Source of the DNA: Branchiostoma floridae
Lineage: Eukaryota; Chordata; Leptocardii; Amphioxiformes; Branchiostomatidae
Reading direction: 5' to 3'
Length of the DNA stretch: 64,000 bases
Assembly (NCBI RefSeq): GCF_000003815.2
Contig: NC_049995.1
Coordinates: forward strand, 18,436,864-18,500,863
Part shown: positions 1,121 to 59,637 of the stretch, in pieces
Numbering within the stretch: the first letter of the stretch is position 1
Layout: the number at the start of each line of letters is the position of its first letter
Notes under the pieces: generated by a model
Databases searched by the model: none
Told to the model about the DNA's origin: nothing
The model's input: the letters and a program-made list of their open reading frames with translations, nothing else
Made by a program: the position numbers and the translations under genes

Positions 1121-4100
1121 ATGGCGTCACCGGTCCGAGAAAGAGTCACAGCTGCCGACAGGCGCCATTTTGATTTTGTAAAAACCTTGCTCCGTATTTC
1201 CGATGAACTGACAGAAGAGGAAACGGCAAACGTGAAGATCTTCTGTCTGCATCTTATTCCTAAGGGCCACCTGGCACAGCTCAGGCGGGCAATGGACGTT
1301 TTCGTCAAGCTGATGGAACTGGACAAAATCGACCAGGAGAATCTCGATTTTCTCAAAGAGATCTTAGAAGGAATCGGCCGACAGGACCTGATTCAAAATG
1401 TTCTTCAGCGGTTCCAGCCGCCTGACCGAGAGATTCCGGAAAATCCAGGCCTGCAGCCGGAAAATCCCGACCTGCAGCCGGAAAATCCCGACCTGCAGCC
1501 GGAAAATCCCGACCTGCAGCCGGAAAATCCCGACTTGCAGCCGGAAAATCCCGACCTGCAGCCGGAAAATCCCGGCCTGCAGCCGGAAAATCCCGACCTT
1601 CAGCCGCAAAACTCCGACCTTCAGCCGCAAAACCCTGAACTGCAGCCGGGAGACCCCGAAATTCAATCAGGGCAAAGCAATGCAGAAAGAGCAAATGAAG
1701 AAGGTGAGTGTTACTCCACATAAAAAAACATTATTTGTAATGCCTTGAGAAACAGTTTTATATTTTTATAACGCCAACTGCAGTCTATAAATTTTTTATT
1801 CTCTACATGACATGTGGAGGACTATACTCTCCAAACAGATAAGATTTAAAACCTTTCTGTCACTTCATGTTTGATTGTCATTATCAGTATGTCTATGAAT
1901 TCATTATCTTTTAATTGACATTTACATATTAATGGTTAATGATTGCAGCAAATGCAACGTCGAACATCTACGTGGTCGTGCACGGCCAAGTGCGCATGAT
2001 CCAGGAAGCTCTGGATCGTCTTAAAGGTGACCTAGCAAGGTTATCTGGCACCAGGAGGTCACAGGTCAAGTACAGAGGTCACAAGAAGCACAAGAGCATC
2101 CTGGTGCACTTCTCCATACCGCGGGAGAACACGGCGGTGCTGAGGCACATGGCGGATCACTCCGACCCGAGACTTGTCTACATGGGCGTCAAGTCGCTAC
2201 AGATCGACGCTGAAGTTCCCATCAAAGTCCAACAGGAGGCGCCAGTGTACGGTGAGATGACTTTGTATTTCTCTTCATTACCGCCGGCAAGCAGTTTACT
2301 TATTGGTAATGTTGTTAGTTGGTGTTTCTCGCCATGTCTAAAATCGGGTGCTTTGACTTTAAGATTCAATTTATGTGTCGAGTGTTTTTCTTTTGGCCAC
2401 GTTTGCATTTTCTTTCAAGTTACATGAAAATTTCAGAGAACTACAAAAGGGAAAGAAAGAAAGAAGAAAAAAGGGAAGAAACAAAGAAAGAAAAAAGAGA
2501 GAGAAAGAAGGAAAGAAAGAAGATTGTCGCTATTTGTATATTATACAGATTATACCCTATAGCTATGTGTTTATCGTGTACTTTCCATAAATCAGAACCA
2601 TCTAGACTACATATCTGTTGATTTGTGCATGCTACGTTCCTATCACTTGCCTTTCAGATGTCAAGAGACAGCTGCCTGTTGATGATATCGAGGTGGGATG
2701 CAGTACACGAACCAGACACCAGAGGGCGCCCCAGGGCTGGACCCGCCTGTCTGCCCTGAACCTGTTCTCGGACGCCCTGCCGCTCCATCTGCAGGCAGCC
2801 GAGAGTCTGGAGTACCAGGGCTTCTCCTACAGCCTGGTCCGGGCTCTGGTGCAGAAGGACCGGCTCAGAGAACACCAGATGAGGCAGGCCATCCAGAATC
2901 TTAGGAACGCAGAGTTGGATTCCAACACGCTCCGTCAGAAGGCAGAGGTGGATTCCAACACGATCATGACTTTGCGCTCCAAGCTCAACATCTCAGAGAA
3001 CAGGCTGAAGGAGGCTCTTGACACGATCGAAGTTCTTCAAGAAAAGCTGCAGCAGGCTCAAGAATACGCAGAGAAAGCCGCTAAGCAGGTGACATCCCAC
3101 GTGGCCGAGTACAGGGGAGAGAAGCCGCCTGGAGGCTGGCCACAGGAGTACAGGGGAGAGAAGCCGCCTGGAGGCTGGCCACAAGAGTACAGGGGAGAGA
3201 AGCCGCCTGGAGGCTGGCCACAGGAGTACAGGGGAGAGAAGCCGCCTGGAGGCTGGCCACAGGAGTACAGGGGAGAGAAGCCGCCTGGAGGCTGGTCAGC
3301 ACAGGTCGAGAATGCAGATGCAGCTACACAGACACATCTAGCGGATGCTGTTAGTACTACAGGGGGATCTGGAGATGTGGACGACAAGCTTGGAGAAGAC
3401 CCGACTGTAACTGAAGAAGACAAGGGAACTGCAGGGCAAGACTCTGACACTGACCCTGATGGTCCTAAAGCTACCGAAGAAAAGCGACACACAGCGGGGG
3501 CAGAGGGAGCGGCATCTGACACTACTGGAGATTTGACACAGGATGTGATGACTTTTGGCCGGAAAGGATCAGAACCTGGAGAGTTTCATCACCCGCGCGG
3601 GGTTGTAGTGTCGCCTAGCAACGACATATTTGTGGCTGATATGAGTAACAAGCGAGTCCAAGTTCACACCACAGAGGGGGTTTACCTGCGCCACTTCCCA
3701 ACAGTTGTACCGGGTACAGCGGATAAGGACATGGGGCCACATGATGTCTGTATGGACGGTAACGGCACGTTGTGGGTAGTGGGGGAAGGTGGATCAGCTG
3801 AGCATGTTGTACAGTACAGCACGGACGGGATCGCCATGGGGGGGTTTCACCTGGAGGAGATCGGTTATTTCCGCGGTATTGCAGTAGACATGCGCACTAA
3901 CCACATCCTGGTTACTGATGCACACCAAGGTGCAGTTCATGTGTTCCGTCCGGACGGCTCCCTGGTGCGGACAGTGCAGCATCCACGGGAGGAGATGAGA
4001 CGCCCTCGGTACGTCACTGTGGACGGGAACTTTCTTGTGTCGGACCGGGACACTCACAGAGTATACGTGTATGACGAGTCCGGGAAATTCCTGTTCCAGT

Positions 4101-4345
4101 TCGGAGGTGAGGGAAGCGGTGAAGGTCAGATGAGTTTTCCTCACGGCATCTGTACAGACAGCTCGGGGCATATCCTCGTGGCGGACTATGGGAACGAGAG
4201 GGTTCAGATCTTCACACGTCACGGCGAGTTTGTCCGTACCGTCCATCCAGGGTTTAACCCGGAAGGCCTGGCTGTGGGACCGGAAGGGCAGCTGGTTGTT
4301 ACCAGTCATTTTGACCATACTGTGACTGTATATCCCTGCTATTAG
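1121..4345 (+). CDS. Gene A: DED - alpha/beta domain - coiled coil - NHL protein, 857 aa
   Basis: Predicted coding exons are 1121-1703 (ATG one base after the acceptor tgttttcag), 1949-2251 and 2658-4345, joined by GT-AG introns that are both phase 1. Residues 1-98 form a death-effector domain like those of caspase-8 and FADD, ending in a helix with the RxDL motif (RQDL, residues 87-90). Residues 106-182 are eleven heptapeptides of the PENPDLQ type. Residues 195-295 are the middle alpha/beta domain, followed by a helical coiled-coil region, five EYRGEKPPGGWPQ repeats, an acidic linker and NHL repeats from about 592 to the end. DEDs recruit partners by homotypic binding and NHL propellers bind RNA or protein, so a cytosolic sensor or adaptor role is inferred. 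The protein starts MASP where paralogs B-I start MAGP. The exon-3 core reads KYRGHKKHK where paralogs have KFRGYKKHK. The leader exon should lie left of the window. Confidence 0.88.
1436..1666 (+). repeat. Coding 21-bp minisatellite (PENPDLQ heptapeptides) in gene A
   Basis: Eleven in-frame 21-bp units encode PENP[GD]LQ and end in the degenerate units PQNSDLQ, PQNPELQ and PGDPEIQ. The central units are almost identical at DNA level, so the expansion is recent. The tract links the DED to the next domain and is probably extended and disordered. At the same place B, F and G carry 39-bp units (PPDREIPENPELQ type), while C, D, E and H have a single unit. Confidence 0.9.
2446..2525 (+). repeat. Polypurine (GAAA/GGAAA) low-complexity tract, gene A intron 3
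   Basis: About 80 bases of nearly pure A and G lie in the intron between the middle-domain exon and the NHL exon. The same intron of D (about 28613-28650) and E (about 38323-38340) has shorter purine runs at the matching place, so the tract was ancestral and grew in A. Confidence 0.8.
3107..3301 (+). repeat. Coding 39-bp minisatellite (EYRGEKPPGGWPQ x5) in gene A
   Basis: Five almost identical 39-bp units encode EYRGEKPPGGWPQ directly after the coiled coil. Paralog copy numbers are B 5 (9841-10035), C 2 (19990-20067, altered), D 1 (29331-29369), E 2 (39014-39091), F 2 (45176-45253), G 4 (53235-53390) and H none. Pro, Gly and Trp content suggests a flexible, non-helical spacer between the coil and the acidic linker before the propeller. 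Confidence 0.9.
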
Positions 4346-7630: not shown

Positions 7631-7754
7631 AAAACCGCTCATTCTGAAACCTCGTAATGAGGCTACGTGACTAGCATCCAGCAGCTGTTAAATTGCACTG
7701 ACAATGTGTGGAGAATATTTTCAGTTTACTGACATTTCATCGTCTGTTCTCAGG

Positions 7755-10700
7755 ATGGCAGGTCCGGTCCGAGAAAGCAGAGTCACAGATGCCGACAGGC
7801 GCCATTTTGATTTCATGCAAACCTTGCTCCGTATTTCCGATGAACTGACAGAAGAGGAAACGGCAAACGTGAAGGTCTTCTGCCTGCATCTGATTCCTAA
7901 GGGCCACTTGGAAAAGCTCAGGCGAGGAATGGACGTTTTCCTTAAGCTGATGGAACTGGACAAAATTGACCAGGAGAACTTGGAGTTTGTTGAAGAGATC
8001 TTGGAGAGGATCGGGCGACAGGACCTGATTCTGGACGTTCTGCGGCGGTTCCAGCCGCCTGACCGAGAGATCCCGGAAAATCCCGAACTGCAGCCGCCTG
8101 ACCGAGAGGTTCCGGAAAATCCCGAACTGCAGCCGCCTGACCGTGAGGTTCCGGAAAATCCCGAACTCCAGCCGCCTGACCGTGAGGTTCCGGAAAATCC
8201 CGAACTCCAGCCGCCTGGCCGAGAGATTCCGGAAGATTCCGAACTCCAGCCGGAAACCCCCGAACTGCAGCCGGAAACATCCGAACTGCAGCCGGAAACC
8301 TCCGAACTGCTCCCCGAAACCCCCGTACTGCCGCCAGAAAACCCTGAACCTCAACCAGAAAACCCAGAACTCCAACCAGGTGAAAGCAATTCATATCAAG
8401 CCAATGAAGCTGATTTTTAATGTATTAACATACAATTATTTCTAACGCCTTACTATTTTTTACGCTTTTGTATTTCTACAACAAGTACAGCTTTCCTAGT
8501 CCAAAACTCTCATTTCTACGTGAAGAAGAATGTTGAAATATTTGAGATGTTTTTGAGATATTTCTGTAAATTCCTGTTTTAATTGGCATAAACGTGTCAA
8601 TGTGTCTGCAAATTCATTTTTGATTAACTTTAACATATCAATAATTATTCATTGAAGGAACAACAACGTCCAACATCTACGTGGTCGTGCACGGCACAGT
8701 GCGCATGATCCAGGAAACTCTAGATCATCTAAGAAACCGCCTGGCAACGTTATGTGGCACCAGGAGGTCACAGGTCAAGTTCAGAGGTTACAAGAAGCAC
8801 AAGAGCATCCTGGTGCACTTCTCCATACCGCGGGAGAACACGGCGGTGTTGAGGCACATGGCGGATCACTCTGACCCGAGACTTGTCTACATGGGCGTCA
8901 AGTCACTACAGATCGACGCTGAAGTTCCCATCAAAGTCCAACAGGAGGAGCCTGTGTACGGTGAGTTGATTTCTTTTTCTCTTAATATAAACACAGTTGT
9001 CAGTTTCAGAGTCAAGTTCATTAAGACATCGCTACTAAATGTAACAGCGTTGAATTGGCTTTCATGTTCATATGCACTAACTTTTCTATTGCAGACCATC
9101 GAAGCTTATCAGAGATAAAAGAAAATTGAATGTCTCATTTTGACAAAACAGTACTTTTGATCTTCCACATGACTAAAATCGCCAGCAGGTCTGCTAGACA
9201 AAGTTTGCTACACTAATTGATACAGATGTTGACCCCCACTACACTTTGAAAAGCAGGTATTTGTCGTGATGTCATTTCAATCCTTATATTTCATGATGTC
9301 ACATATAACTTACGTATCTGTTCAGATGTCAAGAGGCAGTTGCCTGTCGATGACATCGAGGTGGGGTGCAGTACCCGGACCAAACACCAGAGGGCGCCCC
9401 AGTGTTGGACCCGCCTGTCTGCTCTGAACCTGTTGTCGGACGCCCTGCCGCTCCATCTGCAGGCAGCCGCGAGTATGGAGTACCAGGGCTTCTCCTACAG
9501 CCTGGTCCGGGCTTTGGTGCAGAAGGACCGGCTCAGAGAACACCAGATGAGGCAGGCCATCCAGAACCTCAGGAACGCAGAGGTGGATTCCAACACGCTC
9601 CGTCAGAAGGCAGAGGTGGATTCCAACACGCTCCGTCAGAAGGCAGAGGTGGATTCCAACACGCTCCGTCAGAAGGCAGATGTGGATTCCAACACAATCA
9701 TGACTTTGCGCTCCAAGCTCGACATCACAGAGAACAGACTGAAGGAGGCTCTTGAGACGATCGCAGTTCTTGAAGAAAAGCTGCAGCAGGCTCAAGAATA
9801 CGGAGAGAAAGCCGCCAAGCAGGTGGCATCCCACGTGACGGAGTACAGGGGAGAGAAGCCGCCTGGAGGCTGGCCACAGGAGTACAGGGGAGAGAAGCCG
9901 CCTGGAGGCTGGCCACAGGAGTACAGGGGAGAGAAGCCGCCTGGAGGCTGGTCACAGGAGTACAGGGGAGAGAAGCTGCCTGGAGGCTGGCCACAGGAGT
10001 ACAGGGGAGAGAAGCCGCCTGGAGGCTGGTCGGCACAGGTCGAGAATGCAGATGCAGCTACACAGACACACCTAGTGGGTTCTGTTGGTACTACAGAGAT
10101 ACCTGGAACTGTGGGTGACAAGGTTGGAGCAAACCTGACTGTAAAGGAAGAAGACGGGAAAACTCCAAGACAAGACTCTGGCAGTGGGAGCAATGGAAAA
10201 GAGGATGTTCTCGGTACAGAAGCACCCGAGCAAGAGCACCACACAGCGGAGACAAAGGTAGCATCTGGCCCTACAAGGGACTTGAAACAGGGTGTGGTCA
10301 CTTTTGGTGGGGATGGATCAAAACCTGGAAAGTTTCTTAGCCCACGTGGCGTTGTGGTGTCGCCTAGCAACGATATATTTGTGGCTGATTCACATAACAG
10401 GCGAGTCCAAGTCCTCAGCACGGAGGGGGTTTACCTTCGCCACTTCCCAACAGTTGTACCAGGTACAGAGGACACGGACATCAAGCCACGTGATGTCTGT
10501 ATGGACGGTAACGGCACGCTGTGGGTAGTTGGGCAGGGATGGACAGCCGATCATGTTGTACAGTACAGCACGGACGGGACCGCCATGGCGCGGTTTAATC
10601 TGACGAAGATCGGTTGTGTCCGCGGTATTGCAGTGGACATGCGCACTAACCACATCCTGGTGACTGATGCAGACCAAGGTACAGTTCAGGTGTTCTGTCC

Positions 10701-11103
10701 GGACGGCTCCCTGGTGCGGACAGTCCGGCATCCACGGGATGTGGAGATGAGACACCCGGGGTACGTCACTATGGACGGGGAAGGGAACATTCTTGTGTCG
10801 GACTGGAACAATAACTATGTCTACGTGTATGACGAGTCTGGGAAGTTCAGGTTCCAGTTCGGAGGTGAGGGAAGTGGTGAAGGTCAGCTGTATTATCCCC
10901 GCGGCATCTGTACAGACAGCTCGGGGCACATCCTCGTGGCGGACTCTGGTAACAAGAGGGTTCAGATCTTCACACGTCACGGCGAGTTTGTCCGTACCGT
11001 CCGTACTGGGTTTGAGCCGGAAGGCCTGGCTGTGGGACCGGAAGGGCAGCTGGTTGTGACCAATGATTGGTACCATACCGTGACTGTACAGTCGAACTAT
11101 TAG
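7755..11103 (+). CDS. Gene B: DED - alpha/beta domain - coiled coil - NHL protein, 901 aa
   Basis: Coding exons are 7755-8379, 8658-8960 and 9326-11103, with phase 1 introns. The first donor is ccag/gtgaaa and the acceptor before exon 3 (cattgaag/ga) has a poor pyrimidine tract, so that junction is the least certain; it is supported by exact conservation of the 303-nt exon length. The DED has RQDL at 88-91. The Pro-rich tail is the most complex of the family, with about five 13-residue PPDREVPENPELQ units followed by heptapeptides of the PETSELQ type. The coiled coil holds four hendecads (AEVDSNTLRQK x3 plus ADVDSNT), the joint maximum with G, and five EYRGEKPPGGWPQ repeats follow. NHL repeats cover about residues 636-901. 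Last-blade variable loop is NDWYH. This is the longest member of the array. Confidence 0.88.
8047..8379 (+). repeat. Coding minisatellites (39-bp then 21-bp units) in gene B
   Basis: In-frame 39-bp units of the PPD/GREVPENPELQ type repeat about five times, then 21-bp units (PETPELQ, PETSELQ, PETSELL, PETPVLP, PENPEPQ) follow to the splice donor. The 21-bp unit is contained in the 39-bp unit, so the heptapeptide arrays of A and the 13-mer arrays of F and G could arise from each other by slippage with different periods. Confidence 0.85.
9571..9699 (+). repeat. Coding 33-bp hendecad repeat in gene B coiled coil
   Basis: Tandem 33-bp units encode AEVDSNTLRQK three times and then a fourth variant ADVDSNTIMTL. 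Copy numbers including the terminal SNTIMTL unit are A 2, C 2, D 3, E 3, F 3, G 4 and B 4. Eleven residues form a hendecad, which keeps coiled-coil register (3 turns per 11 residues), so unit gain or loss lengthens the coil without breaking it. Confidence 0.8.
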
Positions 11104-18109: not shown

Positions 18110-21100
18110 ATGGCAGGTCCGGTCAGAGAAATAGTTACAAATGCCGACAGGCGCCATTTTGATTTTGTGCAAACCTTGCTCCGTATTTCCGATGAGCTGA
18201 CAGAAGAGGAAACGGCAAACGTGAAGATCTTCTGTCTGCATCTGATTCCTAAGGGCCACCTGGCACAGCTCAGGCGGGCAATGGACGTTTTCGTCAAGCT
18301 GATGGAACTGGACAAAATCGACCAGGAGAATCTCGACTTTCTCAAAGAGATCTTGGAAAGAATCGGTCGACAGGACCTGATTCAGAATGTTCTGCGCCAG
18401 TTCCAGCCGCCTGACCGAGAGATTCAGGAGAATCCTGAATTGCAGCCGGGAACAATTCAACAGGGAGCAGATGCAGAAGGTTAGTAACATGCAAGAAAAT
18501 TATTGATAAACCTCGAACAAAAATCCATTATCTGCCCGACAGCCTTGTCTCGTCATAGAAATACATTTCTATGGAATTTGCTCTCAATTCAACTAATAAA
18601 AGAAATCATCAGAAGCAATACTGCGGACTTGTTGTTGATAATAAGGTTATTGCAAATTCTTGCCCATGGGCTAATTCCAGGTAACATGAGATATTCAGAC
18701 ATTCAGAGTATAAAAACAATATCACAAGTGTCTACTCTTGTCTAAAACTAGTAAAAGCTAACTCTAGGTCCTGGGTTATTGGGTTCGACTCTTTTTCGAT
18801 GACTGTGGAAGACGAAAGATCCCACCTTTTCTATTAACATTAACACTTTCATTGATACTTGATATTCCAGGAAATGCAACGTCCAATACCTACGTGGTCG
18901 TGAACGGCCAAGTGCGCATGATCCAGGAAACTCTAGATCGTCTTAGAAACCACATAGCAACGTTATCTTGCAGCAGAAGGTCACAGGTCAAATTCAGAGG
19001 TTACAAGAAACACAAGAGCATCCTGGTGCACTTCTCCATACCGCGGGAGAACACGGCGGTGCTGAGGCACATGGCGGATCACTCCGACCCGAGACTTGTC
19101 TACATGGGCGTCAAGTCACTGCAGATCGACACTGAAGTTCCCATCAAAGTTCAACAGGGGGCGCCGTTGTACGGTAAGTTGACTTCTTTTTCTCTTCATA
19201 TGCACTCAGTTGTGAATTTCAGGGTCAATTTCATATTAATGTAAGTGTCTTTTATTGATACATATCTTCATATGTACTTTCCTGTTGCAGAATTTTTAAG
19301 CTTTATCAAAGACTATAGTTGTTGAAGAATATAAAATGTCTCCCTGTGAAAAAACATCAGTCGACTCCGTTCCAGCACTATCGGGCAGTCTACCACGTGA
19401 CTCTAATTGCTAAGAGATTTGCCGCATAAATAGATACAGATGATGACCTCAACTACACTTTAATAAGCAAGTCTTGTACGAGATCTCATATTAGTCCATA
19501 CGTTTCATGATGTCACATATCTTTTATTTATGTGTTCTAGATGTCAAGAGGCAACTGGCTGTTGATGACATCGAGGTAGGCTGCAGTACCCGGACCAGAC
19601 ACCAGAGGGCGCCCCAGAGCTGGACCCGCCTGTCTGCCCTGAACCTGTTCTCGGACGCCCTGCCGCTCCATCTGCAGGCAGCCGCGAGTCTGGAGTACCA
19701 GGGCTTCTCCTACAGCCTGGTCCGGGCTCTGGTGCAGAAGGACCGGCTCAGAGAACACCAGATGAGGCAGGCCATCCAGAACCTCAGGAACGCAGAGGTG
19801 GATTCCAACACGCTCCGTCAGAAGGCAGAGGTAGATTCCAACACGATCATGACTTTGCGCTCCAAGCTCAACATCACAGAGAACAGGCTGAAGGAGGCTC
19901 TTGAGACGATCGAGGTTCTTGAAGAAAAGCTGCGGCAGGCTCAAGAATACGCAGAAAAAGTCGCCAAGCAGGTGACGTCCCACGTGACGGAGTACAGGGG
20001 AGAGAAGTCGCATGGAGGCTGGCCAGAGGAGTACAGGGGAGAGAATCCGCATGGAGGTTTGTCTGCAGAGGTGGAGAAGGCAGATGCAGCTACACAGACA
20101 CACCTAGCGGGTCCTGTCGGTACCACAGGGAGACCTGGAGAAGTGGGCGAAAAGCTTGGAGAAGACCCGACTGCAAAGGAAGAAGACAAAAAAACTCCAA
20201 GACAAGACTCTGGCAGTGGGGGCGATGAAAGAGAGGATGTTCTCGGTACAGGAGCACCCGAGCAAGAGCGACACAGAGCGGTGACAGAAGCAGCGACATC
20301 TGGCTCTACTGGGGACTTGAAACAGGGTGTGATCACTTTTGGTGGGGAAGGATCAGAACCTGGAAAGTTTCAGTTCCCACGTGGCATTGTGGTGTCACCT
20401 AGCAACGAGATATTTGTGACTGATATGCACAACAGGCGAGTCCAAGTCCACAGCACGGAGGGGGTTTACCTGCGCCACTTCTCAACAGTTGTACCGGGTA
20501 CAGGGGATAAGGACATGGCGCCGTATGATGTTTGTATGGACAGTACCAGCACGCTGTGGGTAGTGGGGCGGGGATGGACAGCTGACCATGTTGTACAGTA
20601 CAGCACGGACGGGACCGCCATGGCGGGGTTTGACCTGAAGAAGATCGGTTATTCCCGCGGCATCGCAGTGGACATGCGCACTAACCACATTCTGGTGACT
20701 AATGCAGACCGCGGTGCAGTTCTTGTGTTCCGTCCGGACGGCTCCCTGGTGCGGAAAGTTCTGCATCCACGGGGTGAGATGACAACCCCGGGGTACATCA
20801 CTGTGGACGGGGAAGGGAACATTCTTGTGTCGGACTGGGACACTCACTGTGTCTACGTGTATGACGAGTCCGGGAAGTTCCTGTTTCAGTTCGGAGGTGA
20901 GGGAAGTGGTGAAGGTCAGCTGAAGTTTCCCCACGGCATCTGTATAGACAGCTCGGGTAACATCATCGTGGCGGACCGTGGGAACGAGAGGATTCAGATC
21001 TTCACACGTCACGGCGAGTTTGTCCGGACCGTCCGTACTGGGCCGGTCCCACGCGGCCTGGCTGTGGGGCCGGAAGGGCAGCTGGTTGTGACTGGTCGGG

Positions 21101-21135
21101 ATAACCACACTGTGACTGTATTTCCTAACTACTGA
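18110..21135 (+). CDS. Gene C: DED - alpha/beta domain - coiled coil - NHL protein, 755 aa
   Basis: Coding exons are 18110-18479, 18871-19173 and 19541-21135, both introns phase 1. The ATG follows ctttcag/a, the only array member with A instead of G before the ATG. The DED is complete (GRQDLI) and the Pro-rich tail is minimal, one PPDREIQENPELQPG unit. The middle domain differs at CSRRSQ and IDTEVP where most paralogs have GTRRSQ and IDAEVP. The coil has two hendecads, and the two EYRGEK repeats are altered (EYRGEKSHGGWPE, EYRGENPHGGLSA). NHL repeats span about 490-755. Blade variable positions include DMHN, WDTHC, RGNE and GRDNH. Blade 2 has CMDSTSTLWV where most paralogs have CMDGNGTLWV. 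Confidence 0.88.
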
Positions 21136-37000: not shown

Positions 37001-37322
37001 GAAAGCCCTTTGTAAAAAAAGGCTAGGTGTACTAAATTTATGTATGCCAGGTCTGCTTTGCCGACATAACTCTCCAGTGTCTCAAATCAGCTTCGCTGAT
37101 TGTAGTGCGGCACTTCTGGAAAGCGGTCATTATAGGCCATCTCGAAAATGCATTTGTTACACCATATCACAACACAAAATAGCCTTTTCTTAAACCTACT
37201 GCCTTTCGTGAATCGATATTTGGCTATAAACATCAAGTAGCAAATAAAATTTTACTTACTTAGAGACCTATAATGTGTGCACAAAAGTTCCAGTTCATTA
37301 ACATTTTATCGTCTGTTTCCAG
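34031..37322 (+). other. Gene E upstream region, unlike other loci
   Basis: The usual GC-box/CRE modules and type 1 or type 2 leader exon were not found here. A possible leader donor is ggtgtacag/gtaagt at 34343. The ORF 35574-35924 (116 aa) has no recognisable domain and no clear coding signs. Positions 36250-36370 repeat the dispersed element seen at 11480-11715, followed by gggttctttaacgtgcctggg, a repeat-like phrase. The 300 bases before the DED exon again resemble the other loci. Confidence 0.45.
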
Positions 37323-37323
37323 G

Positions 37324-40159
37324 ATGGCAGGTCCGGTACGAGAAAGAGTCACAGATGCCGACAGGCGCCATTTTGATTTTGTGCAAACTTTGCTCCGTAT
37401 TTCCGATGAACTGACAGAAGAGGAAACGGCAAACGTGAAGTTGTTCTGCCTGCATCTGATTCCTGAAGGCCAATCGGAACAACTAAAGCGGGCAGTGGAC
37501 GTTTTCCAAAAGCTTATTAAACTGGACAAAATCGACCAGGAGAATCTCGACTTTCTCGAAGAGATCTTAGAAAGAATCGGCCGACAGGACCTGATTCGGG
37601 ACGTTCTGCGGCGGTTCCAGCCGCCTGACCGAGAGATTCCGGAAAATCCCGAACTGCAGCCGGGAACAAGTCAACAGGGAGCGGATGCAGAAGGTGAGTT
37701 ACGACTAACATGCAAGAAAATTATGGATAAACCTCAAACAACAATTCAATATCAATACAATTTGCTCTTCAACTTGTCTCGTCATAGGAAAAAATTTCTA
37801 TGGAATTTGCTCTCAATCCAACTACTGATAGAAAACATAGGAAACAATACTGCGGACTTGTTTTCAATTGACATAAACAATTTGATACTTTATATTCCAG
37901 GAAATGCAACGTCTAACACCTACGTTGTCGTGAACGGCCAAGTGCGCATGATCCAGGAAACTTTAGATCGCCTTAGAAACCACATAGCAACGTTATCTGG
38001 CACCAGAAGGTCACAGGTCAAGTTCAGAGGTTACAAGAAGCACAAGAGCATCCTGGTGCACTTCTCCATACCGCGGGAGAACACGGCGGTGCTGAGGCAC
38101 ATGGCGGATCACTCCGACCCGAGACTAGTCTACATGGGCGTCAAGTCACTGCAGATCGATGCTGAAGTTCCCATCAAAGTCCAACAGGAGGCGCCGCTGT
38201 ACGGTGAGTCGACTTTGTATTTTTCTTCAGTTTCGAGTTGGTGTTTCAGTTTATGTATTTGGTGCTTTTTTTGGCCACGTTTGCATTTTCTTCCAAGTTA
38301 CATGTAAATGTTTGAGAAATAGGTAAAGGGAAAGAAAAATGACTGTCGTCACATTGTGTAGGTACTTAACAACATGTCAAAGACGTGTCTGATAGACATC
38401 TCTGATAAATTGTCACTAGCTGTCTTTTATACAGAAAATGCCCTGTGTATTCAAAGTGTACTTTCCCTCAATCAGCGTCATCTAGACTGAATAACTGTTG
38501 ATTTGTAAATGTTCTTTCACTTGCCTTTCAGGTGTCAAGAGACAACTGTCGGTCGATGACATCGAAGTGGGATGCAGTACCCGTTCCAAACACCAGAGGG
38601 CGCCCCAGAGCTGGACTCGCCTGTCTGCCCTGAACCTGTTCTCGGACGCCCTGCCGCTCCATCTGCAGGCAGCCGCGAGTCTGGAGTACCAGGGCTTCTC
38701 CTACAGCCTGGTCCGGGCTCTGGTGCAGAAGGACCGGCTCAGAGAACACCAGATGAGGCAGGCCATCCAGAACCTCAGGAACGCAGAGGTGGATTCCAAC
38801 ACGCTCCGTCAGAAGGCAGAGGTGGATTCCAACACGCTCCGTCAGAAGGCAGAGGCGGATTCCAACACGATCATGACTTTGCGCTCCAAGCTCAACATCT
38901 CAGAGAACAGGCTGAAGGAGGCTCTTGAGACGATCGCAGTTCTTGAAGAAAAGCTGCAGCAGGCTCAAGAATACGCAGAAAAAGCCGCGAGGCAGGTGAC
39001 ACCCCACGTGACCGAGTACAGGGGAGAGAAGCCGCCTGGAGGCTGGTCACAGGAGTACAGGGGAGAGAAGCCGCAAGGAGGCTCGTCGAAACAAGTCAAG
39101 AAGGCAGATGAAGAGTCACAGACCCACCTAGCGGATCCTCTAGGTAGCACAGGGAGACCTGAAGATGTGGGCGACAAGGCTGGAGAAGACCCAACTGTAA
39201 AGGAAGAAGACAAAACAGCTGCAATGCAAGACTCTAGCAGTGAGAGCGATGGAAGAGTGGAAGTCCTCGGTACAGAAGCACCCGAGCAAGAGCGACACAC
39301 AGCGAGGACAGCAGGAGCGGCAGCTGGCTCTACTGGGGACTTGAAACAGGGTGTGATCACTTTTGGTGGGAACGGAACACAACCTGGAAAGTTTCTGGAC
39401 CCACGTGGCGTTGTCGTGTCGCCTAGCAACGAGATATTTGTGGCTGATTATAACAACAGGCGAGTCCAAGTCCACAGCACAGAGGGGGTTTACCTGCGCC
39501 ACTTCCAAACAGTTGTACCGGGTACAGGGGATAAGGACATGGAGCCGCATGATGTCTGTATGGACGGTAACGGCACGCTGTGGGTAGTGGGGCGGGGAGA
39601 GACAACCGATCATGTTGTACAGTACAGCACGGACGGGACCGCCATGGCGGGGTTTGACCTGAAGAAGATCGGTTATTCCCGCGGCATTGCAGTGGACATG
39701 CGCACTAACCACATCCTGGTGAGTGATCCAGACCAAGGTGCAGTTCATGTGTTCCGTCCGGACGGCTCCCTGGTGCGGACAGTCCGGTATCCACGGGGTG
39801 AGATGGCAGACCTACGGTGTATCACTGTGGACGGAGAAGGCAACATTCTTGTGTCGGACTGGAAGAGTAACTCTGTGTACGTGAATGACAAGTCCGGGAA
39901 GTTCCTGTTCCAGTTCGGAGGTTGGGAAAGTGGTAAAGGTCAGCTGAGTGGTCCCCACGGCATCTGTACAGACAGCTCTGGCCACATCCTCGTGGCGGAC
40001 TATGGGAACCAGAGGGTTCAGATCTTCACACGTCACGGCGAGTTTGTCCGGACCGTCCGTACAGGGTTTCGGCCGGAATGCCTGGCTGTGGGACCGGAAG
40101 GGCAGCTGGTTGTGACCAGTTGGAATAGCCACACTGTAACTGTATTTCCTAACTACTGA
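37324..40159 (+). CDS. Gene E: DED - alpha/beta domain - coiled coil - NHL protein, 766 aa
   Basis: Coding exons are 37324-37693, 37901-38203 and 38532-40159, phase 1 introns. The DED is complete with more charged changes (EGQSEQLKRAVDVFQKLIKLDK), RQDLI kept. The tail has one PPDREIPENPELQPG unit. Intron 2 is 207 bases, a multiple of three, and is open in frame, so an intron-retained transcript would still encode one protein. The coil has three hendecads, then EYRGEKPPGGWSQ and EYRGEKPQGGSSK. The NHL part begins about residue 501, with variable loops DYNN, WKSNS, YGNQ and SWNSH, and TGFRPEC in blade 6. Blade 4 has VYVNDKSG where paralogs have VYVYDESG. The upstream region differs from all other members. 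Confidence 0.88.
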
Positions 40160-43339: not shown

Positions 43340-46315
43340 ATGGCAGGTCCTGTTCGAGAAAGAGTCACAGATGCCGACAGGCGCCATTTTGATTTTGTGC
43401 AAACTTTGCTCCGTATTTCCGATGAACTCACAGAAGAGGAAACGGCAAACGTGAAGTTGTTCTGCCTGCATCTGATTCCTAAAGGCCAGGCGGCACAACT
43501 GAAGCGGGCCGTGGACGTTTTTCAAAAGCTGATGGAACTGGACAAAATAGACCAGGAGAATCTCGACTTTCTCAAAGAGATCTTGGAAAGAATCGGTCGA
43601 CAGGACCTGATTCAGAATGTTCTGCGAAGTTTCCAACCACCTGACCGAGAGATTCCGGAAAATCCGGAACTCCAGCCGCCTGGCCGAGGAATTCCGGAAA
43701 ATCCCGAACTCCAGTCACCTAGCCGAGAAATTCCGGAAAATCCCGAACTCCAGCCGCCTGACCGAGAGGATCCGGAAAATTCCGAACTCCAGCCGGGGAC
43801 AAGTCAAGAGGGGGCATATGCAGAAAGTGAGTGAGCGGAAATCACCTAAAACAAATAAAATGTATCTGCACAATCTATCCTACACTTAATTCGTCCAAAA
43901 TTACTTTGACTTAATACATATTGTTCATAATTTTCAAATCTGTAGAGACCTTTCTGTAGATTTATATTTCATTGAGCATAAACAAATCATTTACTGATTG
44001 TTGCAGGAAACGCCTACTTGGTTGTGCACGGTGAAGTGCGCATGATCCAGGAAAATCTCGATCGTCTGAGAAACCGCCTAGCAATGTTATCTGGGACCAG
44101 AAGGTCACAGGTCAAGTTCAGAGGTTACAAGAAGCACAAGAGCATCCTGGTGCACTTCTCCATACCGCGGGAGAACACGGCGGTGCTGAGGCACATGGCG
44201 GATCACTCCGACCCGAGACTTGTCTACATGGGCGTCAAGTCACTGCAGATCGATGCTGAAGTTCCTATCAAAGTCCAACAGGGGGCGCCGTTGTACGGTG
44301 AGTCGACTTCTTTTGGTACTTTCTTTGGCAATTCAAGACTTTTGCTGGAGTTGACTTCTTTTAGTCTTCATATGTACTCTGTGTAATTTAGAATTTTGCA
44401 GGTCAATCAAAGAATATCGATGTTATGTGAGTTAATTTTTCTGTTTTAGAAGCACTATCAAAGACTAGAAATTTTGATAGAAACAGAATCTCCACGTGTT
44501 GAAAAACTTAGCAGTCCATTAAATTCCAGTAATTTCCGACCTTCTACAATAGGACTGAAACTGACATTAATTGCATGTTCATCAATAGCTATAAAGATTG
44601 TATACTTGGACAAGCAGGTGATGTACGTGATGCCATGACCTACCCTATGTTTCATGATGTCATATATTTTTCACTGATGTGTTTCAGATGTCAAGAGACA
44701 ACTGGCTGTTGATGACATCGAGGTGGGATGCAGTACCCGGAACAAACGCCAGAGGGCGCCCCAGAGCTGGACCCGCCTGTCCGCCCTGAACCTGTTCTCG
44801 GACGCCCTGCCGCTCCATCTGCAGGCAGCCGCGAGTCTGGAGTATCAGGGCTTCTCCTACAGCCTGGTCCGGGCTCTGGTGCAGAAGGACCGGCTCAGAG
44901 AACACCAGATGAGGCAGGCCATCCAGAACCTCAGGAACGCAGAGGTGGATTCCAACACGCTCCGTCAGAAGGCAGAGGTGGATTCCAACACGCTCCGTCA
45001 GAAGGCAGAGGTGGATTCCAACACGATCATGACTTTGCGCTCCAAGCTCAACATCACAGAGAACAGGCTGAAGGAGGCTCTTGAGACGATCGCAGTTCTT
45101 GAAGAAAAGCTGCAGCAGGCTCAAGAATACGCAGTGAAAGCCGCCAGCAGCCAGCAGGTGACATCTTACGTGACGGAGTACAGGGGAGAGAAGCCGCCTG
45201 GAGGCTGGCCACAGGAGCACAGGGGAGAGAAGCCGCCTGGAGGCTGGTCGGAACAGGTCGAGAGGGCAGATTCAGCTACACAGACACACCTAACGGATCC
45301 TGTTGATACTACAGGGATACCTGGAGATGTGGGCGACAAGGTTGGAGCAGACCCGACTGTTAAGGAAGAAGACGGGAAAACTCCAAGACAAGACTCTGGC
45401 AGTGGGAGCAATGGAAAAGAGGATGTTCTCGGTACAGAGGCACCCGAGCAAGAGCGACAAACAGCGGGGACAGGGGGAGCGGCAACCGGCTCTACTGGGG
45501 ACTGGAAACAGCGTGCGATCACTTTTGGTGGGAAAGGTTCAGAACCTGGAAAGTTTTCTTACCCATGTGGTGTTTTGGTGTCGCCTAGCAACGACATATT
45601 CGTAGCTGATATAGACAACAGGCGAGTCCAAGTCCACAGCACGGAGGGGGTTTACCTGCGCCACTTCCCAACAGTTGTACCGGGTACAGGGGATAAGGTC
45701 ATGTACCCATATGATGTTTGTATGGACGGTAACGGCACGCTGTGGGTAGTGGGGCGGGGAGAGACAGCTGAGCATGTTGTACAGTACAGCACGGACGGGA
45801 CCGCCATGGCGGGGTTTGACCTGAAGAATAGCTCTTATTACCGTGGTATAGCAGTGGACATGCGCACTAACCACATCCTGGTGACTGATCGAGACCAAGG
45901 TGAAGTTCAGGTGTTCCGTCCGGACGGCTCCCTGGTGCGGACAGTCCGGCATCCACTGGGTGAGATGACATGCCCACATTACGTCACTTTGGACGGGGAG
46001 GGGAACATTCTTGTGTCGGACTGGAGAAGTAACTATGTCTACGTGTATGACGAGTCCGGGAAGATCCTGTTCCAGTTTGGAGGTTTGGGAAGTGGTAAAG
46101 TGAGTGGTCCCGCAGGCATCTGTACAGACAGCTCGGGTCACATCCTCGTGGCGGACTCTGTGAACGAGAGGATTCAGATCTTCACACGTCACGGCAGGTT
46201 TGTCCGTACCGTCCGTACTGGATTTAAGCCGGAAGGCCTGGCTGTGGGACCGGAAGGGCAGCTGGTTGTGACCAGTTGGTTTAACAACTCTGTGACTGTA
46301 TTTCCTGACTACTGA
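43340..46315 (+). CDS. Gene F: DED - alpha/beta domain - coiled coil - NHL protein, 801 aa
   Basis: Coding exons are 43340-43826, 44007-44297 and 44688-46315. The first donor is gaaa/gtgagt, so the split codon gives Arg where paralogs have Gly. The DED is complete (GRQDLI). The Pro-rich tail has four 13-residue units (PPDREIPENPELQ, PPGRGIPENPELQ, SPSREIPENPELQ, PPDREDPENSELQ). The middle exon is 291 nt, four codons shorter than usual, reading NAYLVVHGEV where paralogs have NATSNTYVVV. The coil has three hendecads and an extra SSQ before QVTSYVTEYRG. NHL repeats start about 537. Blade 5 has a two-residue deletion (SGKVSGPAG). Variable loops include DIDN, WRSNY, SVNE and SWFNN. Confidence 0.88.
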
Positions 46316-50100: not shown

Positions 50101-50114
50101 CCCACCTGCCATGT

Positions 50115-51504: not shown

Positions 51505-54470
51505 ATGGCAGGTCCGGTCCGAGAAAGAGTCACAGATGCCGACAGGCGCCATTTTGATTTTGTCCAAACCTTGCTCCGTATTTCCGATGAGCTGACAGAA
51601 GAGGAAACGGCAAACGTGAAGATCTTCTGCCTGCATCTCATTCCTAAGGGCCACCTGGCACAGCTCAGGAGAGCAATGGACGTTTTCGTCAAGCTGATGG
51701 AACTGGACAAAATCGACCAGGAGAATCTTGATTTTCTCAAAGAGATCTTGGAAAGAATCGGACGACAGGACCTGATTCAAAATGTTCTGCGCCAGTTCCA
51801 GCCGCCTGGCCGAGAGATTCCGGAAAATCCCGAACTCCAGCCGCCTGGCCGAGAGATTCCGGAAAATCCCGAACTCCAGCAGGGGACAAGTCAAGAGGGG
51901 GCAAATGCAGAAGGTGTGTGACATGTTGAAATCACCTAAAACAAATCAAAAATATCTGCAGAATCTATCTTGCACTTTATTCGTCCCAAAATAACTTTGT
52001 CTTAAAAGATATTGTTCACAATTTTGAAATCTGTAGACACCTTTCTGTAGATATATATTTTATTGGGTATAAACAAATCATTAACTGATTGTTGCAGGAA
52101 ACGCCTACTTGGTTGTGCACGGTGAAGTGCGCATGATCCAGGAAAATCTCGATCGTCTGAGAAACCGCCTAGCAACGTTATCTGGGACCAGAAGGTCACA
52201 GGTCAAGTTCAGAGGTTACAAGAAGCACAAGAGCATTCTGGTGCACTTCTCCATACCGCGGGAGAACACGGAGGTGCTGAGGCACATGGCGGATCACTCC
52301 GACCCGAGACTTGTCTACATGGGCGTCAAGTCACTGCAGATCGACGCTGAGGTTCCCATAAAAGTCCAACAGGGGGCGCCATTGTACGGTGAGTTGATTT
52401 TTTCAGTCTTTATATGTACTCTATTTGTCAATTTTAGACGTTTGCAGGTCCATCACAGGAATGTGGATTTTAAAGTGAGTTTAAATTTCTCTCTTGAAGA
52501 TGCACCATCAAAGACTACAGAGTGTTTTCTTTTAAAAAATCAGCAGTCAATTTTATTCCATTGCTTTCTGACCATCTCCCATATGAATGAAACTGTCAGT
52601 ATCTATGTTAGATATCTGAATAAAGATATTTACTAACTCCAACTAGCAGGTGTTGTACGAGATAATATATCAAACCCTCTGTTTCATCATGACATTTATC
52701 TTTCACTTTTTTGTCCCAGATATCAAGAGGCAACTTCCTGTTGATGACATCGAAGTGGGATGCAGTACCCGGACTAAACACCAGAGGGTGCCCCGGAGCT
52801 GGACCCGCCTGTCTGCCCTGAACCTGTTCTCGGACGCCCTGCCGCTCCATCTGCAGGCAGCCGCGAGTCTGGAGTACCAGGGCTTCTCCTACAGCCTGGT
52901 CCGGGCTCTGGTGCAGAAGGACCGGCTCAGAGAACACCAGATGAGGCAGGCCATCCAGAACCTCAGGAACGCAGAGGTGGATTCCAACACGCTCCGTCAG
53001 AAGGCAGAGGTGGATTCCAACACGCTCCGTCAGAAGGCAGAGGTGGATCCCAACACGCTTCGTCAGAAGTCAGAGGTGGATTCAAACACGATCATGACTT
53101 TGCGCTCCAAACTCAACATCACAGAGAACAGGCTGAAGGAGGCTTTTGAGACGATCGCAGTTCTTGAAGAAAAGCTGCAGCAGGCTCAAGAATACGCAGA
53201 GAAAGTCGCCAAGCAGATGGCATCCCACGTGACGGAGTACAGGGGAGAGAAGCCGCCTGGAGGCTGGCCACAGGAGTACAGGGGAGAGAAGCCGCCTGGA
53301 GGCTGGCCACAGGAGTACAGGGGAGAGAAGCCGCATGGAGGCTGGCCACAGGAGTACAGGGGAGAGAAGCCGCCTGGTGGCTGGTCGACACAAGTTGAAA
53401 CGTCAGATGCAGCTACACAGACACATCTAGCGGATGCTGTTGGTACTACAGGGGGATCTGGAGATGTGGACGACAAGCTTGGAGAAGATCCGACTGTAAA
53501 GGAAGAAGACAAGGGAACTGCAAGGCAAGACTCTGGCAGTGGGGGCGATGGAAGAGAGGAATTTCTCGGTACAGAAGCACCCGAGCAAGAGCGCCACACA
53601 GCGGGGACAAAAGGAGCGGCATCTGCCTCTACTGGGGACTGGAAACAGGGTGTGATCACTTTTGGTGGGAAAGGATCACAACCTGGAAAATTTTATTACC
53701 CGCGCGGGGTTGTGGTGTCGCCTAGCAACGAGATATCTGTTGCTGATATAGACAACAGGCGAGTCCAAGTCCACAGCACAGAGGGTGTTTACCTGCGCTA
53801 CTTCCCAACAGTTGTACCGGGTACAGGGGATAAGGTCATGAAACCACATGATGTCTGTATGGACGGTAACAGCACGCTGTGGGTGGTGGGGCGAGGAGAG
53901 ACAGCCCACCATGTTGTACAGTACAGCACGGACGGGACCGCCATGGCGGGGTTTGACCTGGAGAAGATCAGTTATTTCCGCGGAATTGCAGTGGACATGC
54001 GCACTAACCACATCTTGGTGACTGATGCAGACCGCGGTGCAGTTCTTGTGTTCCGTCCGGACGGCTCCCTGGTTCGGACAGTCCGGCATCCACGGGGGGA
54101 GATGACAGCCCCGGGGTACATCACTATGGACGGGGAAGGGAACTTTCTTGTGTCGGACTCGGACAGTCACTGTGTCTACGTGTATGACGAGTCTGGGAAG
54201 TTCCTGTTCCAGTTCGGAGGTTGGGGAAGTGGTGAAGGTCAGCTGAGTGGTACCCGCGGCATCTGTACAGACAGCTCGGGGCACATCATCGTGGCGGACT
54301 CATCAACGTGGGTTCAGATCTTCACACGTCACGGCGAGTTTGTCCGAACCGTCCGTACCGGGTCTTCCCGTACTTGGTTTCGGCCGGAAGGCCTGGCTGT
54401 GGGACCGGAAGGGCAGCTGGTGGTGACCAGTCTGTCGAATCACACAGTGATTGTTTTTCCTAACTGCTGA
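51505..54470 (+). CDS. Gene G: DED - alpha/beta domain - coiled coil - NHL protein, 816 aa
   Basis: Coding exons are 51505-51913, 52098-52388 and 52720-54470, phase 1 introns. The DED is complete (GRQDLI), followed by two PPGREIPENPELQ units. The middle exon is the 291-nt form shared with F and has RENTEVLRHM instead of RENTAVLRHM. The coil holds four hendecads (one AEVDPNTLRQK) and four EYRGEKPPGGWPQ repeats. NHL repeats start about residue 547. Two in-frame length changes lie in loops: blade 5 has DSSTWVQI, one residue short, and blade 6 has four extra residues (TGSSRTWFRPEG). Blade 1 has EISVAD instead of EIFVAD. The last exon starts DIKRQ rather than DVKRQ. Confidence 0.88.
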
Positions 54471-54873: not shown

Positions 54874-54880
54874 ACTGCAG

Positions 54881-55647: not shown

Positions 55648-55654
55648 ACTGCAG

Positions 55655-56830: not shown

Positions 56831-56834
56831 GTTT

Positions 56835-56947
56835 AGTGCTATCTATTTTAGTCCCCATACAGGAGACATCTGAGGAAGTTTGTCTTAAAGAATCAAACTG
56901 ACACTGGTTACGTCTTAAGAAGTCAGTCTTACCGTTACGTCACACAG
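56835..56947 (+). promoter_or_regulatory. Core promoter and leader exon of gene H (type 1)
   Basis: The core ctattttagtccccatacaggagacatctgagg precedes a leader ending acgtcacacag/gtgagttttac at 56947/56948. The acceptor at 58186 gives an intron of about 1.24 kb. Confidence 0.55.
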
Positions 56948-57607: not shown

Positions 57608-57730
57608 GTGGCAATGACCTATCAGTGTCCTGATCTCTGCCCCGCCCCTCGGCACGTCCGCGTGACGCGTTAATGATTGATGGACAGAACAAACTCTCCG
57701 GAGTGGTCTGAGCTGACGTCACGGTGAGGT
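57608..57730 (+). promoter_or_regulatory. GC-box/CRE module in gene H intron 1
   Basis: One copy of the module with intact GC box (ctgccccgcccctcggcacgtccgcgtgacgcg) and a perfect TGACGTCA at 57714-57721. Unlike D, F and G, gene H has only one clear copy. Confidence 0.55.
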
Positions 57731-58187
57731 CAAAGTGCTCGGAGATTTACAAACAACTGCAGTACAAGTTCCACTTGGGCTGAGTGTGGATTGAATGCTG
57801 TCCAGTCCCCAGGAGTTAACGCTGTTACTTTGATATGATTACAGTAGAACGTATCTTTGTCAGATATCCAGAAAGAAGACAGTAAGCTGGTACAAGTTTT
57901 GAACTGCGTACGCGCAGGGTCAAAGGTAAGGGCCCCTGACCGGTAATCATGAGTTCTTGTGTTGTTGGGGGCCTTCAACTCTTAGGAATCATCCACAATG
58001 CGTGACTGTGAATGCCAATTTCAAAATGCAAGTACTTTATTCTTTATCATTGTACCCTGCGCAGATTGCTATAAAGCTTTGTGGCTATCATCCAGTAGTT
58101 ATATGTATACCTTACCTACTAGTACTTAGACGTACAATGTGTGCAGAATATGATGAGTTCAGTTCAGTTTTATCGTCTGTTTTCAGG

Positions 58188-59637
58188 ATGGCAGGTCCGG
58201 TTCGAGAAAGAGTTACAGATGCCGACAGGCGCCATTTTGATTTTGTAAAAACCTTGCTCCGTATTTCCGATGCACTCACGGAAGAAGAAACGGCAAACGT
58301 GAAGTTGTTTTGTCTGCATCTGATTCCTGAAGGCCATGCGGAACAGCTGAAGCGGGCAGTGGACGTTTTCCACAAGCTGATAAAAATGGACAAAATCGAC
58401 CAGGAGAATCTCGACTTTCTCGAAGAGATCTTAGAAGGAATCGGACGACAGGACCTGATTCGGGACGTTCTGCAGCAGTTCCAGCCGCCTGACCGAGAGA
58501 TTCCGGAAAATACCGAACTGCAGCCGGGAAGTAACGCCGTGAGTGCAAGTGAAAGAGGTAAGTAAAATCAGCATTTTTCTGGTAACACTTTAAAGGTGCA
58601 TACAACGGTTAACATGACAGTTCTTACCTCGAAGGATATACTTTCAACCGTATCGCAAAATCAATTGACATTTTTCTTTTCTTTTTGTAGTACTGTAATC
58701 AACCTTTGGCTTCAACATTGGCTAAAGCGATAGAACAAATGCTGTTTTCGTTACAGAAGCATCCAAGGAAGAGCGACACACAGCTGAGACAGAAGGAGCG
58801 GCAGCTGGCTCTACTGGGGACTTCATACAGGGTGCGATCACATTTGGTGGGAAAGGATCAGAACCTGGAAAGTTTTGGCACCCAGGTGGCGTCGTGGTGT
58901 CGCCTAGCAACGAGATATTCGTGGCTGATCACATCAACGAGCGAGTCCAAGTCCATAGCACGGAGGGGGTTTACCTGCGCCACTTCCCAACAGTTGTACC
59001 GGGTACAGGGGACACGGACATGATGCCGCATGGTATTTGTATGGACGGTAACGGCACGCTGTGGGTAGTGGGACGAGGAGAGAAAGCTGGTCATGTTGTA
59101 CAGTACAGCACGGACGGGACCGCCATGGCGGGGTTTGAGAAGAGCCATGATTACCGTGGTATAGCAGTGGACATGCGCACTAACCACATCCTGGTGGCTG
59201 ATCCAGACGCCGGTGAAGTTCATGTGTTCCGTCCGGACGGCTCCCTGGTGCGGACAGTCCGGCATCCACGGGGTGGGGAGATGACACGCCCCGGGTACGT
59301 CACTGTGGACGGGGAAGGGAACATTCTTGTGTCGGACTGGGACAGTAACTCTGTCTACGTGTATGACGAGTCCGGGAAGTTCCTGTTCCAGTTCGGAGGG
59401 AAGGGAAGTGGTGAAGGTCAGCTAATGAATCCCCTCGGCATCTGCACAGACAGCTCGGGGTACATCCTCGTGGCGGATTCTGGGAACGACAGGATTCAGA
59501 TCTTCACACGTCACAGCGAGTTTGTCCGGACCCTCCGTACTGGGTCTAACCCGGAAGGCCTGGCTGTGGGACCGGAAGGGCAGCTGGTTGTGACTGATTG
59601 CTATAACCACACTGTGACTGTATTTCCTAACTACTGA
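58188..59637 (+). CDS. Gene H: short DED-NHL protein, 416 aa, middle domain and coil deleted
   Basis: Coding exons are 58188-58557 (donor gaaagag/gtaagt) and 58757-59637 (acceptor ttttcgttacag/AAGC). Both junctions are phase 1 and the frame is open throughout. The DED is complete (GRQDLI, with SDALTEEET), followed by one PPDREIPENTELQPG unit and SNAVSASERE. The second exon starts inside what is acidic-linker coding sequence in paralogs (EASKEERHTAETEGAAAGSTGDF), then runs through NHL repeats from about residue 150. The middle domain, coiled coil, hendecads and EYRGEK repeats are missing. The acceptor lies on paralog exon sequence (ggtacagaagcacc), changed here to a T-richer tract. Blade 2 contains PHGICMD instead of PHDVCMD, and the blade 3 entry is shortened (KSHDYRG). 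Intact blades suggest the short form is functional. Confidence 0.82.

Follow-up and report, generated by a model that had tools for sequence, protein, structure and literature searches.

Hypervariability on one face of the NHL propeller in a tandem gene array of Branchiostoma floridae

Several folds, Ig, LRR and B30.2 among them, have been turned by animals into diversified recognition surfaces. The present analysis concerns a window of Branchiostoma floridae DNA (the whole stretch of 64,000 nucleotides that was analysed, C17:18436864-18500863), which is part of a tandem array of genes ending in an NHL propeller. The window holds eight NHL exons, all on the plus strand, and their genes are called A to H here. 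They probably encode receptors that act in intracellular recognition and belong to a tandem multigene family.

The family itself has been described before. In the sections of PMC8195603 (eLife 2021) drawn upon here, lineage-specific expansions of DED-TRADD-N proteins of the NCOA6 clade are reported in Branchiostoma, with 13-129 proteins per species, and the high sequence variability of their propellers is ascribed to recombination. The array has the same parts in the same order: a DED, a TRADD-N, a flexible low-complexity linker and a C-terminal beta-propeller. Unlike the propeller labelled 'WD40' in those sections, that of the array is NHL by Pfam and has six blades in the model, so that the architecture holds and the label fails. 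The family and its propeller variability are not new, since both are already in these sections, in which no mapping of the variability to one face, no ratio of nonsynonymous to synonymous rates (dN/dS) and no comparison with RING/B-box NHL genes were found.

Two further systems invite comparison. The TRIM-NHL proteins (TRIM2/3/71, Thin, Brat, Mei-P26) also carry a C-terminal six-bladed NHL propeller and give the best structural matches; in seven window pieces of the array, by contrast, Pfam at E up to 1 matched neither a RING nor a B-box. The B30.2 proteins of the fish families finTRIM (ftr), btr and trim35/hltr can be regarded as the nearest working analogue. According to the parts of PMC3137616 used here, their hypervariable ligand loops bear signs of positive selection, also when recombination is allowed for, and 39/59 and 26/37 hypervariable sites are common with FTR. 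Multigene expansion, selected hypervariable sites and the coincidence of such sites between families recur in the amphioxus genes, whereas the fish proteins combine a B30.2 beta-sandwich with a RING/B-box front and the array combines an NHL propeller with DED/TRADD-N. Positive selection concentrated on the ligand face, as in finTRIM B30.2, was found here with our own script, the ligand face being putative. The Branchiostoma-specific subfamily C TRIMs with MATH domains, mentioned in the portions of PMC3503706 consulted, are a different thing.

Judged by titles and abstracts, open-access literature searches yielded no paper on diversified NHL domains, nor one on this for amphioxus TRIM NHL proteins, and the main text of the amphioxus pangenome paper (PMC12373286) contains none of the terms DED, NHL, TRIM, TRADD and propeller. 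As far as open-access searches reach, what is new is that the propellers are NHL, that their variability keeps to one face, that it bears signs of positive selection and that RING/B-box genes vary on the same face. If true, this would add NHL propellers to the short list of diversified recognition folds (Ig, LRR, B30.2 and others). The residue-level map may serve as a guide to the ligand site and offers a natural library of faces on a common framework. Through the link to the DED/TRADD-N front, what the large TRADD-N expansions recognise would become directly testable.

The variable face of the propeller

AlphaFold2, run on the NHL part of gene E with its seven window paralogs, predicted a six-bladed propeller (predicted local distance difference test, pLDDT, 92; predicted template modelling score, pTM, 0.91), and the gene E propeller matched Pfam NHL at E = 2.1e-30; the C-terminal six-bladed NHL propeller of TRIM class VII is present. 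The nearest solved folds are TRIM2, TRIM3, Thin and TRIM71/LIN41, with Brat lower in the ranking. WD40 was absent from the Pfam matches of four NHL proteins (E up to 1), and a profile search of solved structures did retrieve 2ymu (3.7e-25), a WD-40 repeat protein, but ranked it well behind the NHL chains.

Faces were defined by the strand and loop topology of the predicted strands, not by measured geometry. The top comprises the d-a and b-c loops with the adjoining strand halves, the bottom the a-b and c-d loops with theirs. The alignment covered 58 full-length open NHL copies of the array over 267 sites; the ten partial pieces left out include everything found for 7 of the 65 array copies. 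Entropy exceeded 1.5 bits at 44 of the 267 sites, and 42 of these lie on the top face, the others being site 15, in a bottom loop at the N-terminal edge of the NHL domain, and site 147, in mid-strand. Mean entropy was 1.29 bits in the top loops, 0.71 in the top strand halves, 0.33 in the bottom halves and 0.32 in the bottom loops. When the face labels were shifted circularly, none of 266 shifts matched the observed contrast, a shift by one residue coming close (0.711 vs 0.725). Blades 1 to 6 hold 6, 6, 11, 7, 7 and 7 hypervariable sites, respectively.

The initial annotation had seen one hypervariable face in eight paralogs, a claim that is borne out and widened by the 58 copies. By a test set beforehand, the variable sites gather on one face rather than being scattered, which holds for both the hypervariable sites and the selected sites described below. 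The motif strings given for blades 1, 4 and 6 of A to H were all found exactly as written. 'Near-identical' was too strong a term for the paralogs, as E is only 77-81% identical to the other seven. The two places said to vary in each blade, before the PxG turn and after VxD, do vary; the middle residue of PxG varies as well, as does the x of GGxGS in blades 1 and 5, and blades 2 and 3 deviate from the VxD and PxG wording. The variable sites of gene E, based on the entropy and selection analyses, are the following.

39395..39400, + strand: sites 30-31, blade 1, before PxG
39449..39460, + strand: sites 48-51, blade 1 b-c loop; 50 nearly constant
39542..39550, + strand: sites 79-81, blade 2, before and inside PxG; 80 nearly constant
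39593..39610, + strand: sites 96-101, blade 2 b-c loop and strand ends
39662..39679, + strand: sites 119-124, blade 3 d-a loop
39728..39748, + strand: sites 141-147, blade 3 b-c loop and strand c
39794..39817, + strand: sites 163-170, blade 4 d-a loop and start of strand a
39860..39874, + strand: sites 185-189, blade 4 b-c loop
39947..39958, + strand: sites 214-217, blade 5, before and inside PxG
40001..40012, + strand: sites 232-235, blade 5 b-c loop
40067..40078, + strand: sites 254-257, blade 6 d-a loop
40118..40132, + strand: sites 271-275, blade 6 b-c loop

Selection and recombination at the variable sites

Selection was assessed with our own FUBAR-like script (MG94, free synonymous rate) in place of PAML or FUBAR. 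The site model used 56 copies, the near-duplicates L025 and L039_3060 having been removed, and one tree per blade (six trees). Added classes with dN>dS gave a doubled log-likelihood difference (2dlnL) of 157. In 24 null simulations with blade recombination and neutral fast sites (synonymous rate alpha = nonsynonymous rate beta, up to 4), the values stayed at or below 12.2, with at most 15 sites at P>0.9 and at most 6 strict sites. In the real data, 59 of the 267 sites had P>0.9 for dN>dS, 52 of them on top, 5 on the bottom and 2 mid-strand. Divided by element, these are 18 of 24 b-c sites, 20 of 58 d-a sites, none of 29 a-b sites, 1 of 28 c-d sites and 20 of 128 strand sites. The proposal of diversifying selection on a binding surface is supported by this contrast with the nulls.

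When changes were counted over the 58 copies, dN/dS was 0.43 for the framework, whereas it reached 1.85 before PxG (95% 1.44-2.46), 1.15 after VxD (1.01-1.33) and 1.09 at the x of PxG (0.89-1.36). With only A to H counted, the ratio was 0.40 for the framework and 3.53, 1.09 and 1.27 for the three variable places in that order. The ratio, which the initial annotation had proposed as a check, is therefore well above 1 before PxG and only slightly so after VxD. For TRADD-N, of which 48 of the 62 array matches were sampled and one identical copy removed, the same method on one tree (47 distinct copies) gave a 2dlnL of 1.0 and a dN/dS of 0.37; the DED has a dN/dS of 0.22 in the eight window genes and the coiled coil 0.21 in seven. 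As the framework, DED, TRADD-N and coiled coil lie between 0.2 and 0.43, only the propeller face, of all parts tested, carries the signal. By these computations, the other tested parts are under purifying selection and the propeller face shows signs of positive selection. Calls at single sites are provisional and need a standard package.

Several points weigh against selection for recognition. Recombination inflates single-tree tests: one such test gave a 2dlnL of 311 and 62 sites, but 16 recombining nulls reached 22.8-78.1 and yielded as many as 45 sites at P>0.9 and as many as 15 strict ones. It was therefore set aside and the blade-tree test relied on. The class after VxD, taken alone, is hardly above 1. 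A tree-free ratio was 1.00 at the hypervariable sites and 0.60 elsewhere, and a value of 1.00 alone would not prove selection. The observed value exceeds the 0.49-0.79 of neutral simulations, and beta = 3x alpha gave 0.98; the statistic is weak, only 0.67 being reached when selection was simulated at alpha 2 and beta 4. The synonymous rate is raised at eight selected sites (48, 49, 79, 96, 101, 217, 255, 272). Seven of the 59 selected sites are off the top face, sites 15, 147 and 172 being among the strict ones. The site model allows recombination breaks only between blades and mutations only of single nucleotides. Finally, recombination is indicated by a PHI-type (pairwise homoplasy index) test on 356 informative nucleotide sites (z = -7.0, 0/300 permutations), though site incompatibility shows no smooth rise with distance, being 0.95 for sites less than 15 bases apart, 0.73 at 15-45 and 0.90-1.01 beyond.

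A reading without recognition selection would have the exposed loops merely drift, through relaxed constraint, local hypermutation or gene conversion. The tree-free ratio and the recombination would suit it, as would a synonymous change that is about doubled at the hypervariable sites (2.43 vs 1.27 steps per site). However, the bottom loops are nearly invariant, and the nulls that contain neutral fast sites fall far short of the observed 2dlnL. Moreover, neutral simulations with rates of 2 to 4 gave tree-free ratios of 0.55-0.68 with 4.0-7.3 synonymous steps, against the observed 1.00 and 2.43. Drift is thus left with a very slim chance.

Each blade has 54-56 distinct variable haplotypes among the 58 copies, and only 10 of 1,653 pairs of copies have any blade haplotype in common. 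Because the haplotypes are nearly unique, reshuffling of whole blades alone does not account for the diversity; point change or finer exchange at the variable codons may be the largest contribution. Such near-unique combinations on a single diversified face are also typical of recognition alleles. The face might thus tell apart self products, such as family members or allotypes, in allorecognition or partner matching. This is quite improbable: a death-domain front, and the same face on RING/B-box genes, would better fit intracellular defence. The least probable explanation considered is a species-specific function in development or germline conflict with changing targets, such as the silencing of transposable elements. 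It would fit diversifying selection and tandem copies, but DED and TRADD-N are death or immune adaptors in the families described in the cited sections of PMC8195603.

The same face in other NHL genes and its possible ligands

The second set consists of 63 NHL loci at about 50% identity, 60 from the match list of the gene E propeller plus L007, L008 and L047. Fifty-nine were kept and four dropped as partial; L048, which is the same gene as L087, and L005 had been excluded earlier. For at least 46 of the 59, a same-strand RING/B-box match lies no more than 3 kb upstream (150 of 547 candidates scored), and in L048 the RING, B-box and NHL lie within one open frame. All 41 sites above 2 bits are on the top face. 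With 43 of the 44 array sites comparable, 32 of the 41 coincide with variable sites of the array (p = 1e-23; 7e-15 with top sites only). Selection analysis gave a 2dlnL of 32.5 with all 21 selected sites on top, and 27.9 with 13 of 13 on top in the subset of 46 RING/B-box genes. Twelve null simulations of the 59-gene set gave 0.2-14.7, all below 32.5; the site list is less secure, since one null yielded 35 sites at P>0.9 along with 11 strict sites.

In an NHL tree rooted by two distant NHLs, the array and the RING/B-box genes are on separate branches, a split that is weakly supported: the 65-tip branch that contains the array includes zero copies with a RING/B-box match and has a support of 0.652. 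The nearest sequences to the array are copies for which no RING/B-box match was found. A nesting of the array NHL within the RING/B-box genes was unsupported, as the array forms its own clade (0.78; 0.945 with a C18 relative). Upstream of the NHL of one relative (L169, C12:17848600-17853600) lies an acidic, repeat-rich, low-complexity open frame of 1,633 residues, for which Pfam gave no match with E of 0.1 or less. A long upstream frame of this low-complexity kind, likewise blank in Pfam, is recorded for the relative L069. A loose genome-wide search yielded 1,679 NHL candidates, of which 150 were scored and all 150 match, along with the 547 RING/B-box candidates. The NHL repertoire of the genome extends far past the array.

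It is an even call whether the NHL upper face is a general hypervariable recognition surface, in the role that B30.2 loops or LRRs have elsewhere. It would then serve at least two outputs, namely death signalling through DED/TRADD-N in the tandem array and ubiquitin ligases with RING/B-box in dispersed, separately expanded genes. Germline recombination and selection would keep the combination of about 44 residues distinct in each gene.

The upper face that is common to the TRIM71 and LIN-41 subfamilies, according to the parts of PMC5908797 consulted, is the variable one in the array. The same parts name 14 residues of DrLIN41 as RNA contacts. With DrLIN41 numbering plus 44 taken as human TRIM71, the residue numbers agree, as do 14 of 14 residue letters. 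All 14 contacts align to top-face positions of the array NHL, which agrees with the suggestion that the variable face is the RNA-binding face of LIN41. They fall on selected sites at 10 of 14 positions by global pairwise alignment (p = 7e-5) and at 11 of 14 by a motif order set by hand (p = 6e-6). With MAFFT, TRIM71 came out one blade off register against the array, with 12 positions mapped and 7 of them on selected sites; this alignment was not used.

These contacts, together with the nearest solved folds being TRIM-type NHLs, some of them RNA-binding, would be consistent with diversified RNA-binding regulators or RNA sensors, whose DED/TRADD-N front reports binding or regulates transcripts. 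However, the contact residues are not conserved, the 10 or 11 positions being variable and selected. The mean net charge at the contact positions in the array is +0.9 (range -1 to +5) and that over all hypervariable sites -1.5 (range -7 to +5), with no basic pocket; the mean of the second set is +1.6. Because the charge there is only +0.9, RNA as the ligand does not follow from the face shared with LIN41. Furthermore, according to the same parts of PMC5908797, the RNA-binding surfaces of LIN41 or Brat are not significantly conserved in TRIM2/TRIM3 and NHL1, and therefore an NHL domain need not bind RNA in the known way. The RNA reading is accordingly unlikely, and so is a common phosphate-binding pocket. 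Compared with the remaining sites, the hypervariable ones are richer in K, H, N, Y, W, D and E, and a varied protein-binding face is the better guess.

We return to the probable recognition receptors, whose standard gene, by computation, joins a conserved signalling front (DED, TRADD-N, coiled coil) to a linker of variable length and a six-bladed NHL propeller. The propeller face may bind varied non-self ligands, most likely microbial or viral proteins and less likely nucleic acid or sugars. Once the face is occupied, the coiled coil could gather molecules, and the clustered DED and TRADD-N would recruit FADD/caspase-8-like or NF-kB adaptors. The recruited partners would then lead to cell death or inflammation. 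An innate recognition role is suggested by this scheme.

Layout of the array and its genes

With the NHL propeller of gene E as the query, 139 matches were obtained in the genome (513 Mb). Sixty-five NHL exons at 68-100% identity make up the array at C17:18.297-18.906 Mb, on the contig of the window, and form a tandem multigene family within 0.61 Mb. Of these exons, 61 are on the plus strand, and the density is about one per 9-10 kb. Outside the array there is one 72% fragment at C17:11.23 Mb, and the remaining matches are about 46-54% identical. TRADD-N has 62 of its 68 genome matches on C17 at 18.28-18.91 Mb, and the DED 70 of 82 in the array region, fragments included in both.

Genes A to G are each built of three exons: one for the DED, one for TRADD-N and a long final one that encodes coiled coil, linker and NHL propeller. 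The exons were linked by order and splice signals in one assembly, the window containing 163 N. In all seven, intron 2 begins with GT(G/A)AG at one shared position and ends with CAG, or TAG in C. The linker holds 13-residue EYRGEKPPGGWPQ-type repeats between coiled coil and NHL. Tandem in-frame repeats of varying copy number are found in exon 3 of A to G (e.g., 38700-39300), the coiled coil carrying NAEVDSNTLRQKA and the linker 1 to 5 units of EYRGEKPPGGWPQ; because these numbers vary, the lengths of both parts differ among paralogs.

An N-terminal DED was matched in all eight window genes and in the next gene (Pfam DED 2.7e-18 in E and 8.5e-18 in B), and a TRADD-N after it in seven of the eight (Pfam TRADD-like_N 9.2e-10 and NCOA6_TRADD-N 1.2e-8 in E). 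The pieces scanned with Pfam were the DED/TRADD-N of E, the DED of B, the TRADD-N of G, the last exons of B, E and G, and the NHL of H. The eight genes had been taken as complete, which is right for A to G. Gene H (58188-59637) has DED and NHL exons, with no TRADD-N or coiled-coil match found, and is either a shortened architecture or a decayed copy. The features of the window are listed below.

1121..1414, + strand: gene A DED (exon 1); tblastn with a window DED, Pfam DED on the E and B copies
1981..2229, + strand: gene A TRADD-N (exon 2)
2658..4345, + strand: gene A exon 3, coiled coil, EYRGEKPPGGWPQ repeats, NHL propeller; open reading frame (ORF), acceptor CAG|AT, NHL match
7755..8051, + strand: gene B DED; Pfam, tblastn
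8690..8938, + strand: gene B TRADD-N
9326..11103, + strand: gene B exon 3, coiled coil/linker/NHL; ORF, Pfam, splice signal
18110..18403, + strand: gene C DED
18903..19151, + strand: gene C TRADD-N
19541..21135, + strand: gene C exon 3; ORF, splice signal
27447..27743, + strand: gene D DED
28152..28400, + strand: gene D TRADD-N
28849..30437, + strand: gene D exon 3; ORF, splice signal
37324..37617, + strand: gene E DED; Pfam
37933..38181, + strand: gene E TRADD-N; Pfam
38532..40159, + strand: gene E exon 3, NHL part modelled (pLDDT 92); ORF, Pfam, model
43340..43633, + strand: gene F DED
44027..44275, + strand: gene F TRADD-N
44688..46315, + strand: gene F exon 3; ORF, splice signal
51505..51798, + strand: gene G DED
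52118..52366, + strand: gene G TRADD-N; Pfam scan
52720..54470, + strand: gene G exon 3; ORF, Pfam, splice signal
58188..58481, + strand: gene H DED, with no TRADD-N/coiled-coil match after it
58789..59637, + strand: gene H NHL propeller; ORF, Pfam
62888..63843, + strand: DED (60% identical) and TRADD-N of the next gene, whose NHL exon lies past the window end

A single open frame of 344 residues runs through the DED exon, intron 1 and the TRADD-N exon of gene E (37273-38307), so that the unspliced reading is open too. Elsewhere in the array, L039 (C17:18788596-18790413, minus strand) has one open frame of 929 residues with two full NHL propellers, and L010 has a similar pair, one member being partial. 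L020/L025 and L010/L039 are near-identical pairs whose members are distant within the array; they are either very recent segmental duplications or assembly duplicates.

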